Positions 4,512 to 53,299 of a stretch of DNA of 64,000 nt are shown one piece after another (within the stretch, counting starts at the first letter, position 1; each line of letters opens with the position of its first letter). Location of the stretch: the NCBI RefSeq assembly GCF_018139645.1, contig NZ_JAGSPM010000004.1, positions 186,001 through 250,000 on the forward strand, written 5' to 3'. This DNA is from Affinundibacterium baiyunense. GTDB taxonomy: Bacteria; Pseudomonadota; Gammaproteobacteria; Burkholderiales; Burkholderiaceae_D. A model generated the notes under the pieces. That model had not been told where the DNA came from and did not search any database. It saw nothing but the letters and a program-made list of their open reading frames with translations. The position numbers were made by a program, and so were the translations under genes.

Positions 4512-7208
4512 ATGTCGAATCCAGTTAATTTTCAAGGTCTAAGCGAACAGGAAGCGCAAGCACAATTTTTGATTGATGGTCCAAATGAACTGGCAACGGC
4601 AAAAGCGCAAAATGTTTGGCAAATCGCTTGGCATGTCATCTCTGAGCCAATGATTCTCTTGTTAATCTCATGTGGATCGATTTATCTCATTTTAGGCGAC
4701 TGGCATGATGCAGTCGTTCTTTCTGGCTTTGTGATGGGCATGGTCATAATTAGCTTTTACCAAGAGCGTAAGACCGAACGTGCGCTTGAAGCCTTACGCG
4801 ATCTATCTGATCCACGTGCAATCGTGATTCGCGCAGGACAACGTATTAGTATTCCAAGCAAGCAAGTCGTGACCGGTGATTATCTTGTGTTATCAGAAGG
4901 CGATCGTGTCGCAGCCGATGGTATTTTAATTTCGTCTCTCAACTTAACTGTCGATGAATCCTTACTCACAGGTGAATCCTTAGCTGTCGCCAAAGTGGCT
5001 TTCAACGAGCTAGCAACAGATCAAAAGCATGAGACGCATGATCGTGTTACTCAACTCCCTTCATCAGAAGTACAACACCATCAAGACAAGTCTTTTCAAC
5101 AGGTCACTGTGGGCGCCGCTGGCGGTGACAACACACCCTTTGTATTTTCTGGCAGTCTCGTTGTACAAGGTCAGGGTATTGCTATTGTTCGAAGTACTGG
5201 GACACGCACAGCCATAGGCAAAATTGGCAACGCCTTAGCGGAAATTCAAGAAGAACCAACCCGCGTCCAAAAAGAAACCAAACAGATAGTCAAATACGTC
5301 GCACTGGCTAGCTTGAGCTTAGCAATTTTATTAGCGGTCTGGTATGGCTGGAGTCGCACAGATTGGACCCGTGGCATCTTGGTTGGATTAACGTTTGCAA
5401 TGGCGATGATTCCCGAAGAATTACCAGTCGTACTGACGATTTTCTTGGGTATCGGTGCATGGCGGATTGGTCAAAAGAATGTATTAACACGTCGCATTCC
5501 TGCCATCGAAACACTGGGATCAGCCAATGTCTTATGTGTCGATAAAACCGGGACCTTAACGCAAAACAAAATGGCCTTGGTACAACTTGTAAAAGGTGAG
5601 CATCAATTCAATTGCGCTCATCAGAAAACTTTGCCAGAAGATTTACATGAGGTACTCGAATTCGCTGTGCTGGCAAGTCAAAGCCAAGGCAGCGAACCAA
5701 TGGACCAAGCCCTGCAGCAAGCTGGACAGGAATTACTCGGCGATAGCGAACATTTACACAAGAATTGGCAGCTGCTACAAGAATATCCGCTGACCAAACA
5801 ATTACTTGCCATATCGCGCGCTTGGAAAAACACCGATCAAAATACTGATCAAAACTCAGATCAAAATACAGATCGCATCGTCATAGCCAGCAAAGGCGCA
5901 CCCGAAGCAATCGCGGAACTTTGCCATTTGAGCTCAGATGAATCTGCCGCGCTGATGCGACAAGTCAATACGATGGCGGAGCAAGGTTTACGCGTTCTTG
6001 CGGTGGCAAAAGCGGAGTTAACCTCAGTATCCAATGGCGCGGATTTACCTAGCCAACATCATGATTTCAACTTTAAATTACTAGGCTTGCTTGCCTTTGC
6101 TGACCCTATTCGCGATGGCGTTCCAGCCGCGATTCAAGAATGTCGCGATGCTGGCATACGTGTCATGATGATCACCGGAGATTATCCAGCTACGGCATTA
6201 AACATTGCCAATCAATGCGGTATCGATACGAGTGCGGGCGCCTTATCTGGCACACAAATGCAAACCATGTCAGATGCGCAATTGCAGCAGCAACTACAGC
6301 ATGTGCATGTGTTTTGTCGCGTCATGCCAGAGCAAAAATTACGCATCGTTAGACTGCTCAAACAAAGCAATGCAGTGGTGGCGATGACAGGCGATGGCGT
6401 GAATGATGCTCCTGCTCTGAAAGCCGCGCATATCGGGATTGCGATGGGCAAACGTGGAACCGATGTAGCGCGTGAATCGGCTGATCTTGTTTTGCTAGAT
6501 GATAAGTTTTCATCGATCGTTGCGGCCGTGCGTTTAGGCCGACGCATCTTTGACAATTTACAAAAAACACTGAGCTTTATCATTGCTGCGCATGTACCTA
6601 TCGTCGCGCTATCATTTTTACCTGTGATGTTTGGCTGGCCCGTATTACTGATGCCAGTTCATATCCTAATCCTGGAATTAATTATCGACCCAAGTTGCTC
6701 ATTGGTATTCGAAGCCGAGCAAGAAGAACAAAACATCATGCAACGCCCACCGCGTTCCATGCATTCAAGCATTTTCCAAGCCAAAGTTTTATGGCGTGGT
6801 TTTTGGCAAGGCAGCAGCATTTTCTTGATGGTGTTAGCAGTCTATTGGTTCACGATGCTACAAGGTATTGCCAACGATGAAGCACGCGCCATCACGTTCA
6901 CCGCGATCGTTGTTGGCAATCTCGGATTTATCTTCCTTAATCGTTCGCTGAGTGGCAATTTACAACAGACACTGAAAGCATCGAATCCGATATATTGGTG
7001 GGTCAATGGTGGAACACTGATTGCCATGATTTTGATCCTAAGCATCGCCAATCTTCGACAGCTATTTTATTTTGGCAATCCAGATGCGTTGCACTTATTA
7101 TTCAGTGCAATGTTTGCTGCCTGCGTAGTGTGCGCAATCGCGATCATGCAAAGTGTCTTTCTAAACACAAGAAATGTCAGCACGAAGCCCTCCAAAATTG
7201 CCATTTAA
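4512..7208 (+). CDS. P-type cation-transporting ATPase (P2/Ca2+-ATPase-like)
   Basis: An 898-residue inner-membrane ion pump with a full set of P-type motifs: N-terminal cation-ATPase domain (about 5-60), TGES of the actuator domain (about 153), PEELP in the ion-site helix M4 (about 301), the phosphorylated Asp in DKTGT (about 344), GDGVND (about 627-632) and C-terminal membrane segments. The order and the four to six C-terminal helices place it with P2-type pumps (calcium, or Mg/Na-like). The transported ion cannot be told; PEELP instead of the PEGLP of SERCA argues against a simple calcium label. Two insertions stand out: about 45 polar residues after TGES and a tetrapeptide repeat at about 440-455. 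The gene appears monocistronic. Confidence 0.9.
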   Translation: MSNPVNFQGLSEQEAQAQFLIDGPNELATAKAQNVWQIAWHVISEPMILLLISCGSIYLILGDWHDAVVLSGFVMGMVIISFYQERKTERALEALRDLSDPRAIVIRAGQRISIPSKQVVTGDYLVLSEGDRVAADGILISSLNLTVDESLLTGESLAVAKVAFNELATDQKHETHDRVTQLPSSEVQHHQDKSFQQVTVGAAGGDNTPFVFSGSLVVQGQGIAIVRSTGTRTAIGKIGNALAEIQEEPTRVQKETKQIVKYVALASLSLAILLAVWYGWSRTDWTRGILVGLTFAMAMIPEELPVVLTIFLGIGAWRIGQKNVLTRRIPAIETLGSANVLCVDKTGTLTQNKMALVQLVKGEHQFNCAHQKTLPEDLHEVLEFAVLASQSQGSEPMDQALQQAGQELLGDSEHLHKNWQLLQEYPLTKQLLAISRAWKNTDQNTDQNSDQNTDRIVIASKGAPEAIAELCHLSSDESAALMRQVNTMAEQGLRVLAVAKAELTSVSNGADLPSQHHDFNFKLLGLLAFADPIRDGVPAAIQECRDAGIRVMMITGDYPATALNIANQCGIDTSAGALSGTQMQTMSDAQLQQQLQHVHVFCRVMPEQKLRIVRLLKQSNAVVAMTGDGVNDAPALKAAHIGIAMGKRGTDVARESADLVLLDDKFSSIVAAVRLGRRIFDNLQKTLSFIIAAHVPIVALSFLPVMFGWPVLLMPVHILILELIIDPSCSLVFEAEQEEQNIMQRPPRSMHSSIFQAKVLWRGFWQGSSIFLMVLAVYWFTMLQGIANDEARAITFTAIVVGNLGFIFLNRSLSGNLQQTLKASNPIYWWVNGGTLIAMILILSIANLRQLFYFGNPDALHLLFSAMFAACVVCAIAIMQSVFLNTRNVSTKPSKIAI
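5829..5876 (+). repeat. In-frame 12-nt tandem repeat inside the ATPase gene
   Basis: Four consecutive 12-nt units encode NTDQ-NTDQ-NSDQ-NTDR within the nucleotide-binding domain. The period is a multiple of three, so copy-number changes would keep the frame. The units differ mainly at third codon positions, so the repeat is not brand new. Confidence 0.8.
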
Positions 7209-16604: not shown

Positions 16605-16710
16605 AAAATCCCTCAACGCTGAGACGCAGAGGCGCAGAAGAGCGCAGAGAAGAGCTTCCTCTCATTTCGTTTTTCTCAGCGTCTCGGCGCCTCGGCGTTG
16701 AAGGGTTTTG
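16605..16710. repeat. Imperfect inverted repeat in the prpB-prpC spacer (family E)
   Basis: The left arm begins with CTCAACGCTGAGACGCAGAG near 16612. The right arm, about 16675-16705, is its imperfect reverse complement (TCTCAGCGTCTCGGCGCC, then CGGCGTTGAAGGG). A related CGCAGAGGCGCAGAG element lies between the ppiC and hemerythrin genes at 53140-53299. Confidence 0.8.
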
Positions 16711-16724
16711 ATTTTCAATCCAAT

Positions 16725-17615
16725 TTACTTATTCTTTTGCTGCGCAAACAAAGCATCTAACTTCTGTTCAAAATCGTGGTAGTTGATGCGCTCGTAGAGT
16801 TCCATACGCGTTTGCATGGTGTCGACCACATTCTTCTGTGTGCCATCGCGACGAATCGCGGTGTAGACATTTTCTGCGGCTTTATTCATGGCGCGGAAAG
16901 CACTCAATGGGTAGAGCACTAAACCGACATCGGCTGAGGCCAACTCTTCTACCGTGTACAAAGGTGTAGAACCAAATTCGGTGATGTTGGCGAGGATAGG
17001 TACTTTCACCGCGTTGGCGAATTGTTTGTACATATCGAGTTGCGTAATCGCTTCTGGGAAGATCATGTCCGCACCGGCTTCAACGCACGCCAAAGCGCGA
17101 TCAATTGCGGCTTCCAAACCTTCGACAGCAAGCGCATCGGTACGTGCCATGATCACGAAATTTTCATCGGTACGCGCATCAACTGCCGCTTTCACGCGAT
17201 CGACCATTTCTTGTTTGCTGACGATTTCTTTACCTGGGCGATGGCCGCAACGCTTGGCACCGACTTGATCTTCAATGTGCATCGCTGCTGCGCCAAACTT
17301 GATCATCGATTTGACCGTGCGCGCCACATTAAATGCCGATGAACCAAAACCGGTATCGACGTCGACCAACAAAGGCAGATCGCAGACATCGGTAATACGG
17401 CGCACATCGGTTAACACGTCGTCCAAATTGGAGATACCCAAATCTGGCAAACCGAGCGAGCCAGCGGCAACACCGCCACCCGACAAATAAATCGCCTTAA
17501 ATCCAGCGCGTTTCGCTAACAAAGCGTGATTCGCGTTGATCGCACCCACAACTTGTAGTGGAGACTCTTCTTGCATCGCCTTACGGAAGGCTGCACCAGC
17601 GGAATATTGAGACAT
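16725..17615 (-). CDS. prpB: 2-methylisocitrate lyase PrpB
   Basis: A 296-residue PEP mutase/isocitrate lyase superfamily enzyme that splits 2-methylisocitrate into pyruvate and succinate, the last step of the cycle. The family signature [12 protein letters not shown] with the catalytic Cys is at about residues 120-131; VDVDTGFG and IMARTDA carry metal-binding and substrate residues. It is the first gene of the cluster and starts 35 nt downstream of a consensus sigma-54 promoter. The ribosome site is AAGGAA before the ATG. Confidence 0.96.
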
Positions 17616-17649
17616 GTTCTGTTCCTTTTTAGTTGGATGCAGCTGCTAT

Positions 17650-17665
17650 TGCAAAGCGCGTGCCA
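17650..17665 (-). promoter_or_regulatory. Sigma-54 promoter of the prp cluster
   Basis: On the minus strand the sequence reads TGGCACGCGCTTTGCA. It matches the -24/-12 consensus (TGGCAC, five bases, TTGCA) exactly. It would start transcription about 25 nt before the prpB ATG. PrpR encoded next door is a sigma-54 activator, and prpBCDE of enterobacteria is known to need sigma-54. Confidence 0.92.
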
Positions 17666-17707
17666 GCGTCAAGACTGTTCCGAGCTGAATCATCGAGACA
17701 CATTAAA

Positions 17708-17720
17708 AATCAACGACTTA
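17708..17720 (+). promoter_or_regulatory. Candidate IHF site in the prpB-prpR spacer
   Basis: AATCAACGACTTA matches the IHF consensus WATCAANNNNTTR at all fixed positions. It lies about 45 bp upstream of the sigma-54 -24 element, between promoter and repeat array, where IHF would bend DNA to bring a bound activator to RNA polymerase. IHF is known to be required for prp expression in Salmonella. Confidence 0.65.
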
Positions 17721-17795
17721 AGTGATGAAACATGGATACAATCCCGACTAAATCACTTGGTAATAGTGAGAAAATACGTTGCAGCCGCAACGCAT

Positions 17796-17890
17796 TTGAA
17801 ACATAATTGAAACGCTTCTTGAAACACGAATTGAAACTCACCCTGAAACATTGCTTGAAACACTATTAGAAACACCACCTAAAACTCACC
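17796..17890 (+). repeat. Eight-unit 12-nt direct-repeat array (TTGAAAC-N5) abutting the prpR start codon
   Basis: GAAAC starts at 17798, 17809, 17821, 17833, 17845, 17857 and 17869, with a degenerate eighth unit (CTAAAACTCACC) ending at 17890, the base before the prpR ATG. The first unit is 11 nt and the rest are 12 nt. Spacer bases vary, while TTGAAAC is kept. An in-frame TAG at 17867 shows the array is not a prpR N-terminal extension. Likely roles are a multi-site PrpR upstream activating sequence and/or a leader element of prpR; neither can be proven from sequence. Confidence 0.85.
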
Positions 17891-19558
17891 ATGAGCCGTC
17901 GCCCTCCCATTCCGCGTGATCCACAAGATAAGCCGATTATCTGGACAGTCTCGATTTCACGCCTGTTCGATTTATTTCGCGACATCATGGTGGAGTACGA
18001 TGCCAGTGCCGACATCGAACCCATTCACCTTGGCTTTGAAGAGGCAGCACAAGTTTTACGTGAACGTCTACAGACAGAGCGTTGCGATGCGGTGGTTGCC
18101 GCTGGCTCAAATGGTGCCTATCTTAAAAGTCGCTTGCCGATCCCGGTTGTTATTGCCAAAGCCAGTGGTTTCGATGTGATGCAAGCCTTAGCACGCGCAC
18201 GCAAGGTTTCGCGGCAAATTGCGATTGTCACCTATCAAGAAACCATGCCGGAATTAGCTGAGTTTAAAGCGACCTTTGGCTTTCAAGTGGAACAGAGAAC
18301 TTACGTGACGGAAGAAGATGCCAAAAGTCAAATCAGTGAATTAAAAGCGATGGGAATACAAGCCATCGTCGGTGCGGGCTTAATCACAGATTTAGCCGAA
18401 GAAGCTGGAATGACGGGAATCTTCATGTACTCCGCAGCCTCTATTCGCCAAACCTTTGACGATGCAATCGAGATTTCGCGCTTAACCCGCTTAGAGGCGT
18501 CTAAAGGACGGCAACAACCGATAGGAGAATTACGCGCACGCCACAGCATCAATGATTTACGTGGTGAGTCTATACAGATGCAAGAGGTTAGGCAATCCAT
18601 CATGTTATATGCGCGCTCTCCAGCCACCGTGTTATTACAAGGTGAAACCGGCACCGGCAAAGAATTGGCTGCGCAGGCAATCCACAAAGAAAGTGCGCGT
18701 GCACGGCAAGCATTTGTGGCGGTGAATTGCGGCGCCATCGCCGAGTCCTTGTTGGAATCCGAATTATTTGGCTATGAAGAAGGCGCCTTCACTGGCTCGC
18801 GTCGAGGCGGACACGCCGGCCTGTTTGAAGCAGCACATCGAGGCAGTTTATTTTTAGATGAAATTGGTGAAATGCCTTTGAATCTGCAAACGCGCTTACT
18901 ACGCGTGTTAGAAGAAAGAGAAGTTGTTCGTGTCGGTGGCATACGCCCGATACCAGTAGATGTGCGTATTATTAGCGCAACCCATTGCGACCTTGAACAA
19001 AAAGTACGTGACGGACGATTTCGCGCCGATTTATTTTACCGCCTAGCTGTGCTACGTTTGCACTTACCTTCTTTACGTGAGCGCCCTGATGATCTAGTCT
19101 CACTCGCACAATGGAGTTTGAAGCAAGCTTGTGCAGCGATAGGCACACGCGCACATCCAAATGCACAAAATGAGTTGGCGCATTGTCACTTTATTTTGAA
19201 ACAATATGCATGGCCGGGAAATGTGCGCGAACTGCGCAATGTGATCGAGCGACTAGCTCTACATCTGTCAGCGGCACCACTACAAGCCATCACACCAAGC
19301 TTTCTAATAAAATTATTACCAGAACTAAATTCGGCCTCTACTACAAATCTGGATAAATTAGACACAACTTCTAGCGCTGAGTCATCAATTAAAACTAATA
19401 AATCAAATGGCGATTCAGGTCGCACTTTAGATCGTGATTTAGATTCCGATCTAGATTACCTGATAAAAAAATTCAATAATAATCGAGAGGATATCGCGCG
19501 CCATTTAGGAATTAGTCGAACCACCTTGTGGCGTCGCCTCAATAAAAAAAATCTTTGA
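17891..19558 (+). CDS. prpR: Sigma-54-dependent transcriptional regulator PrpR
   Basis: A 555-residue activator of the prp genes. The N-terminal PrpR sensory domain (about 12-215, two periplasmic-binding-like lobes) is known in enterobacteria to sense 2-methylcitrate. The AAA+ domain (about 225-460) has Walker A GETGTGKE (about 251), the sigma-54 contact loop GAFTGS (about 298) and FLDEIGEM. A Fis-type helix-turn-helix lies at the end ([20 protein letters not shown]). A polar, acidic linker (about 475-525) precedes the HTH. No Shine-Dalgarno sequence is visible before the ATG, because the repeat array runs right up to it; the conserved [16 protein letters not shown] near the N-terminus supports this start. 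Divergent from prpB. Confidence 0.95.
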
Positions 19559-53139: not shown

Positions 53140-53299
53140 TTTGCCGCAGAGGCGCAGAGGACGCCGAGAATTTCTATTTACCTCGTCAACACTTAAATCT
53201 TATAAAACTTAACAAACTTAAGCATGATTTAAAGAAGGCTCAATCTCGATAAAAATACCTCTGCGTACTCTGCGTACTCTGCGCCTCTGCGGCGAAAAA
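53140..53299. repeat. Inverted repeat in the hemerythrin-ppiC spacer (family E)
   Basis: TTGCCGCAGAGGCGCAGAG (from 53141) pairs with CTCTGCGCCTCTGCGGCGA (53276-53294), one indel. Next to the right arm the nonamer CTCTGCGTA is tandemly repeated. About 115 nt of AT-rich sequence separates the arms. Related to the repeat in the prpB-prpC spacer. Confidence 0.85.

Follow-up and report, generated by a model that had tools for sequence, protein, structure and literature searches.

A head-to-tail array of putative PrpR half-sites in front of prpR in Affinundibacterium baiyunense

In enteric bacteria, transcription of prpBCDE requires PrpR with 2-methylcitrate, sigma-54 and IHF, as described in sections of PMC5566544 and PMC10101121. 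The PrpR enhancer of Salmonella is listed as CGTTTCATGAAACG in the table of a review on sigma-54 activators (PMC4987338 Table 1, citing Palacios and Escalante-Semerena 2004), and within that table the sites of both PrpR and NtrC are palindromes, the NtrC enhancer being given as TGCACC(A/T)4TGGTGCA. In E. coli K-12 (NC_000913) the spacer between prpR and prpB carries four direct GTTTCA copies at 12, 12 and 10 bp and one inverted TGAAAC; this region is present in 5,169 of 5,426 E. coli genomes. Our literature search, with most subscription journals outside its coverage, showed no description of direct-repeat PrpR arrays among the papers listed.

In this study we describe a repeat array in front of prpR of A. 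baiyunense, found in a stretch of 64,000 nucleotides that we call the window. It is very probably an expanded, unusually one-directional form of a control element known in related bacteria and is mostly ordinary. What is unusual about it is the pure head-to-tail layout together with a step of ~11.7-12 bp rather than 10.5 bp. The locus contains the following features.

16725..17615, minus strand: prpB, methylisocitrate lyase, with prpC and acnD after it, all three divergent from prpR.
17649..17666, minus strand: sigma-54 promoter of prpB, -24/-12 type, CTGGCACGCGCTTTGCAA, fitting TGGCACG-N4-TTGC.
17708..17720, plus strand: IHF consensus match WATCAANNNNTTR (AATCAACGACTTA) between the sigma-54 element and the array.
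17726..17731, plus strand: isolated TGAAAC between the IHF-like site and the array; TGAGAC in the closest relative.
17779..17807, plus strand: candidate sigma-70 promoter of prpR, TTGCAG, 17 bp, CATAAT; its -10 overlaps units 1 and 2.
17802-17807, plus strand: candidate prpR -10 box CATAAT, between two half-sites.
17796..17890, plus strand: head-to-tail array, eight units of TTGAAACnnnnn, steps 11, 12, 12, 12, 12, 12, 12; unit 8 degenerate.
Starts at 17796, 17807, 17819 and 17831: array units 1-4, TTGAAACATAA, TTGAAACGCTTC, TTGAAACACGAA and TTGAAACTCACC.
Starts at 17843, 17855, 17867 and 17879: array units 5-8, CTGAAACATTGC, TTGAAACACTAT, TAGAAACACCAC and CTAAAACTCACC.
17891..19558, plus strand: prpR, sigma-54 activator with PrpR_N, AAA+ and Fis-type HTH domains.

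The unit coordinates confirm what a first-pass annotation had described, namely eight units, seven of them with GAAAC and the last with AAAAC, spaced by 11 and then by 12 bp. TTGAAAC is exact in five of the eight, the remaining three being CTGAAAC, TAGAAAC and CTAAAAC. The core TGAAAC is one half of the Salmonella enhancer as listed in PMC4987338, and the protein encoded just downstream passes the equivalog cut-offs for PrpR (TIGR02329, 779.5 bits with a cut-off of 499.2; NF011953, 828.5 with a cut-off of 703). The array very probably consists of landing sites for this regulator. The likeness to the Salmonella system extends from the half-site to the regulator family and to the control of prpBCDE by PrpR, sigma-54 and IHF, as outlined in parts of PMC5566544. 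However, the listed Salmonella enhancer is a palindrome, whereas the array has eight half-sites in a single orientation and no inverted partner: GTTTC does not occur anywhere in the 275-bp prpB-prpR spacer. Since palindromic GTTTCA/TGAAAC pairing is missing, we class the array as a variant PrpR operator and not as a typical member, and binding of PrpR to direct half-sites is an extrapolation from the published palindrome. E. coli K-12 resembles the window in having direct half-sites at ~12 bp between the equivalent divergent prpR and prpB, so that a 12-bp direct step is not peculiar to the window; it differs in that its half-sites are fewer, are reversed relative to prpR and include an inverted TGAAAC. 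NtrC enhancers likewise lie upstream and serve a sigma-54 activator from the broad class that includes PrpR, but those tabulated are palindromic and have another core, while the array runs head-to-tail.

In the 275-bp spacer GAAAC occurs eight times, seven times within the array and once isolated at 17727, compared with a mean of 0.94 and a maximum of 6 in 5,000 dinucleotide shuffles. Seven copies form a chain at 11-13 bp and the shuffles gave chains of at most three, a conservative test because the shuffles retain the composition contributed by the array. The longest such chain among all 5-mers of the window is that of GAAAC. Searching the whole genome for (GAAACN7)2GAAAC gave four overlapping matches, all at the prpR array; the reversed control CAAAGN7CAAAGN7CAAAG matched seven times elsewhere, perhaps in another period-12 array, so that period-12 strings of such composition are not unique per se.

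The window holds other repeats as well. A second period-12 repeat at 5827-5874 has four copies with the consensus AAAACACAGATC. Repeats of the CGCAGAGG type, which look like inverted pairs, lie at 16617-16700 (between prpC and prpB) and at 53145-53291; the CGCAGAGG 16-mer has four copies in the genome when one mismatch is allowed and is perhaps a REP-like intergenic element.

A search for prpR gave a match in 334 of 392 genomes of the family. The comparison covered 90 loci. The genus itself supplied 38, among them the window, and the remaining 52 came from elsewhere in the family; 30 of the 90 were returned by one search and 60 were hand-picked among the matches listed. TGAAAC/GTTTCA outnumbers every other 6-mer in the 200 bp ahead of prpR, both within the genus and outside it, with 180 copies spread over all 38 genus loci, 200 copies over all 52 others and at least two copies in each of the 90. 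These species are related, so the loci do not count as independent events. A triple TGAAAC with gaps of 2-7 was matched in 133 of the 392 family genomes, but many of the matches listed are unrelated repeats; pairing by eye placed the triple within ~110 bp upstream of prpR in at least 25 genomes outside the genus. The PrpR HTH has SKTT instead of SRTT in eight loci of the Burkholderia type (L024-L031), and the 250 bp upstream of these contain 25 TGAAAT/ATTTCA and 5 TGAAAC/GTTTCA, versus 26 and 404 in the 90-locus set. L024 carries one of each, and L031 carries three and two, respectively. Half-site and PrpR HTH thus appear to differ together, as one split between two groups and not as eight events.

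In seven genomes the last 200 bp before prpR contain at least four TGAAAC and lack GTTTCA; five further loci of the 90 have three TGAAAC and likewise no GTTTCA, which makes 12 of 90 with at least three. The seven form a supported group (97/96) in a tree of 34 PrpR rows. Unit number varies within this clade, the window and its nearest relative being one 12-bp unit apart. The first-pass annotation had made its proposal depend on close relatives having the array; the comparison, carried out in part, found half-sites at every locus and the head-to-tail form in the clade of seven. Its statement that the array ends exactly at the start codon holds for the window (array end at 17890, ATG at 17891) and for the closest relative, but not for the other clade members, in which up to 87 bp separate the end of the last full unit from the ATG. 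A position fixed to the ATG was rejected for the clade, as the distance is variable. A locus of Morganella psychrotolerans (L022) carries six direct TGAAAC upstream of prpR at steps of 11, 9, 9, 9 and 9 bp, ending 12 bp ahead of the ATG, with two GTTTCA also present.

Within the genus, 76 of 105 pairs of neighbouring half-sites in the same orientation (up to 30 bp) have a spacing of 11-13 bp; outside it 40 of 85 pairs do, and 28 are spaced by 7-9 bp. The best-fit period is 11.75 bp in the seven genomes (bootstrap 11.65-11.8) and 11.7 bp in the genus (11.45-11.8), compared with 11.0 bp outside the genus (10.6-11.35), where 10.5 bp fits almost equally (0.419 versus 0.464). The step departs from the 10.5-bp helical repeat in the genus, but the preference is soft and varies from group to group. 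That a 12-bp period does not follow the helix was therefore rightly noted at first pass, with ~11.7 bp measured in the genus, but as an argument against protein binding it fails, since the E. coli half-sites have off-helix steps too. A strict sixfold (hexamer) match with a 12.25-bp step is disfavoured by the period measured in the seven genomes. The length of the PrpR linker gave no clear separation between the direct and the other layouts, being 44-63 residues in the seven and 37-94 in the other 23 of 30 genus loci.

On the prpB side the locus shows a -24/-12 promoter, by the consensus TGGCACG-N4-TTGC as given in part of PMC4676750, with an IHF site between promoter and operator. In the genus the sigma-54 element was matched in 37 of 38 loci and the IHF consensus in 36 of 38, and the distance between them is 56-58 bp in 29 of the 36 loci having both. 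Outside the genus, where 300 bp were read, the sigma-54 element was matched in 38 of 52 loci and the IHF consensus in 25 of 52; 8 of the 14 loci with no sigma-54 match in these 300 bp have an adjacent prpB. The earlier suggestion that the array is a multi-copy PrpR site acting on the sigma-54 promoter has good support, as a prediction, from the identity of the half-site and the conservation of sigma-54 and IHF elements in the genus. We discarded the idea that the half-site cluster keeps a stricter distance to the sigma-54 element than to the ATG, because it depends on the filter: when restricted to sites beyond 90 bp, the distance from cluster to sigma-54 element is 102-170 bp (SD 14.6, 37 loci), but unfiltered the SD is 35.6 versus 27.3 for the distance to the ATG.

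The array may also act on prpR itself. TTGCA(G/C)-17 bp-CATAAT is conserved in seven of seven genomes (the window and six relatives). A scan with the sigma-70 consensus did not report this candidate promoter, whose -35 matches TTGACA at just three of six positions, so that the case for it is one of conservation. CATAAT is found in 31 of 38 genus loci where 4.5 are expected; in 30 of 38 a half-site of either orientation comes before it, and in 29 of 38 it lies between half-sites (the second within 6 bp downstream, degenerate forms accepted). In the window CATAAT sits in the 11-bp first step of the array, and a -10 at this place would explain the odd spacing. Outside the genus TACA[ACT]T is present in 37 of 52 loci versus 7.6 expected, with a half-site within 14 bp in 33. 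Moreover, 11 of 12 prpR loci that have no adjacent prpB retain two or three half-sites within 120 bp, the sole exception being L016, with no half-site in that range; the 12 comprise 7 of 60 fetched and 5 of 19 named loci (L005-L023), some of them close kin. E. coli PrpR is annotated in RefSeq as a dual regulator. However, section 23 of PMC5566544 describes the E. coli prpR promoter as propionate-independent, CRP-activated and believed to be under catabolite repression alone, and for this reason feedback is held as probable and not as settled. The autoregulatory role raised at first pass hence gains from the layout of the genus and from the sites kept away from prpB, while the E. coli statement speaks against it; feedback on prpR is probably real but is the weaker half of our best reading.

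As the first-pass annotation had remarked, the array leaves no room for a ribosome binding site, and we found no Shine-Dalgarno-like sequence ahead of the prpR ATG. Such a 4-mer precedes prpR in 3 of 90 loci; by the same strict 4-mer rule it precedes prpB in 12 of 30, and as prpB often fails the rule too, this contrast carries little weight. A half-site ([TCA]GAAAC) abuts the prpR ATG in 40 of 90 loci, 37 of them with exact TGAAAC and one of them in the genus. The abutting half-sites and the 87 of 90 loci with no Shine-Dalgarno-like 4-mer suggest initiation of the SD-less kind or a very short leader.

Taken together, we consider it likely, at a probability of about 75%, that the array serves PrpR as an enhancer for prpB and, probably, as a site of feedback on prpR. 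Starting from the observed sites, their conservation and the order of the sigma-54, IHF and -10-like elements, we infer binding, looping and autorepression as follows. PrpR activated by 2-methylcitrate would use its Fis-type HTH to bind several TGAAAC half-sites, and the segment linking AAA+ domain and HTH is taken as flexible enough for steps of 11-13 bp. Array-bound PrpR would then drive sigma-54 RNA polymerase at prpB, with IHF bending the intervening DNA into a loop. Less certainly, since half-sites flank and cover the proposed prpR -10 and start, bound PrpR would probably limit prpR transcription.

It might instead be that the array acts on the sigma-54 promoter of prpB and on nothing else, its overlap with the prpR promoter region being without regulatory consequence. 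The E. coli account in PMC5566544 and the conserved sigma-54 and IHF elements of the genus agree with this, as does the tighter filtered spacing to the sigma-54 element, which depends on the filter and counts for little. But half-sites that persist where prpB is not adjacent, a -10-like box that stays between half-sites despite their differing orientation, and the dual-regulator annotation of E. coli PrpR make such a restricted role rather unlikely. A regulator other than PrpR could also be thought of, as a CRP site overlaps the PrpR operator in E. coli (PMC9452892 section 11); yet the core is half of the PrpR enhancer tabulated in PMC4987338, stays with prpR where prpB lies elsewhere and mostly reads TGAAAT in loci with a different PrpR HTH, and we regard this as highly improbable.

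Two further explanations do not invoke binding by a regulator. The first-pass annotation had raised a leader that controls prpR translation, either by the array RNA or by a short encoded frame, LKRFLKHELKLTLKHCLKHY. The 12-nt step indeed holds one frame open in the window, and the missing Shine-Dalgarno and the half-sites touching the ATG would fit. However, the open frame varies among relatives and is broken in several of ten loci compared, the array RNA folds no better than shuffles (z 0.76), no Rfam match was found, half-sites occur in both orientations and the distance from array to ATG is not conserved. With no conserved frame, stable RNA fold or Rfam match the proposal is unsupported, and we give it very little credence. 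The array could also be a passive, functionless minisatellite grown by replication slippage, for which the single-unit difference to the closest relative and the variable unit number of the clade could be cited. This is hardly credible given that the core is conserved while spacer letters vary between units, recurs family-wide in both orientations and equals half of the PrpR site published in PMC4987338.

Returning to the PrpR enhancer as the favoured reading, a bolder form of it can be put forward for the clade. PrpR might there use a non-palindromic, head-to-tail ladder of half-sites whose ~12-bp step (+40 to +50 degrees per unit) is purposely off helix. Successive subunits of an oligomer would then be placed around the DNA, and how strong activation and feedback are would depend on the number of units. 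We regard this as doubtful at present. For the prediction of PrpR sites, the survey offers a trial rule, SRTT in the HTH with TGAAAC and SKTT with TGAAAT, that rests on one split. In conclusion, an odd repeat becomes a testable operator, and the clade provides a natural series of one-directional half-site arrays with a non-helical step beside a conserved sigma-54/IHF layout.
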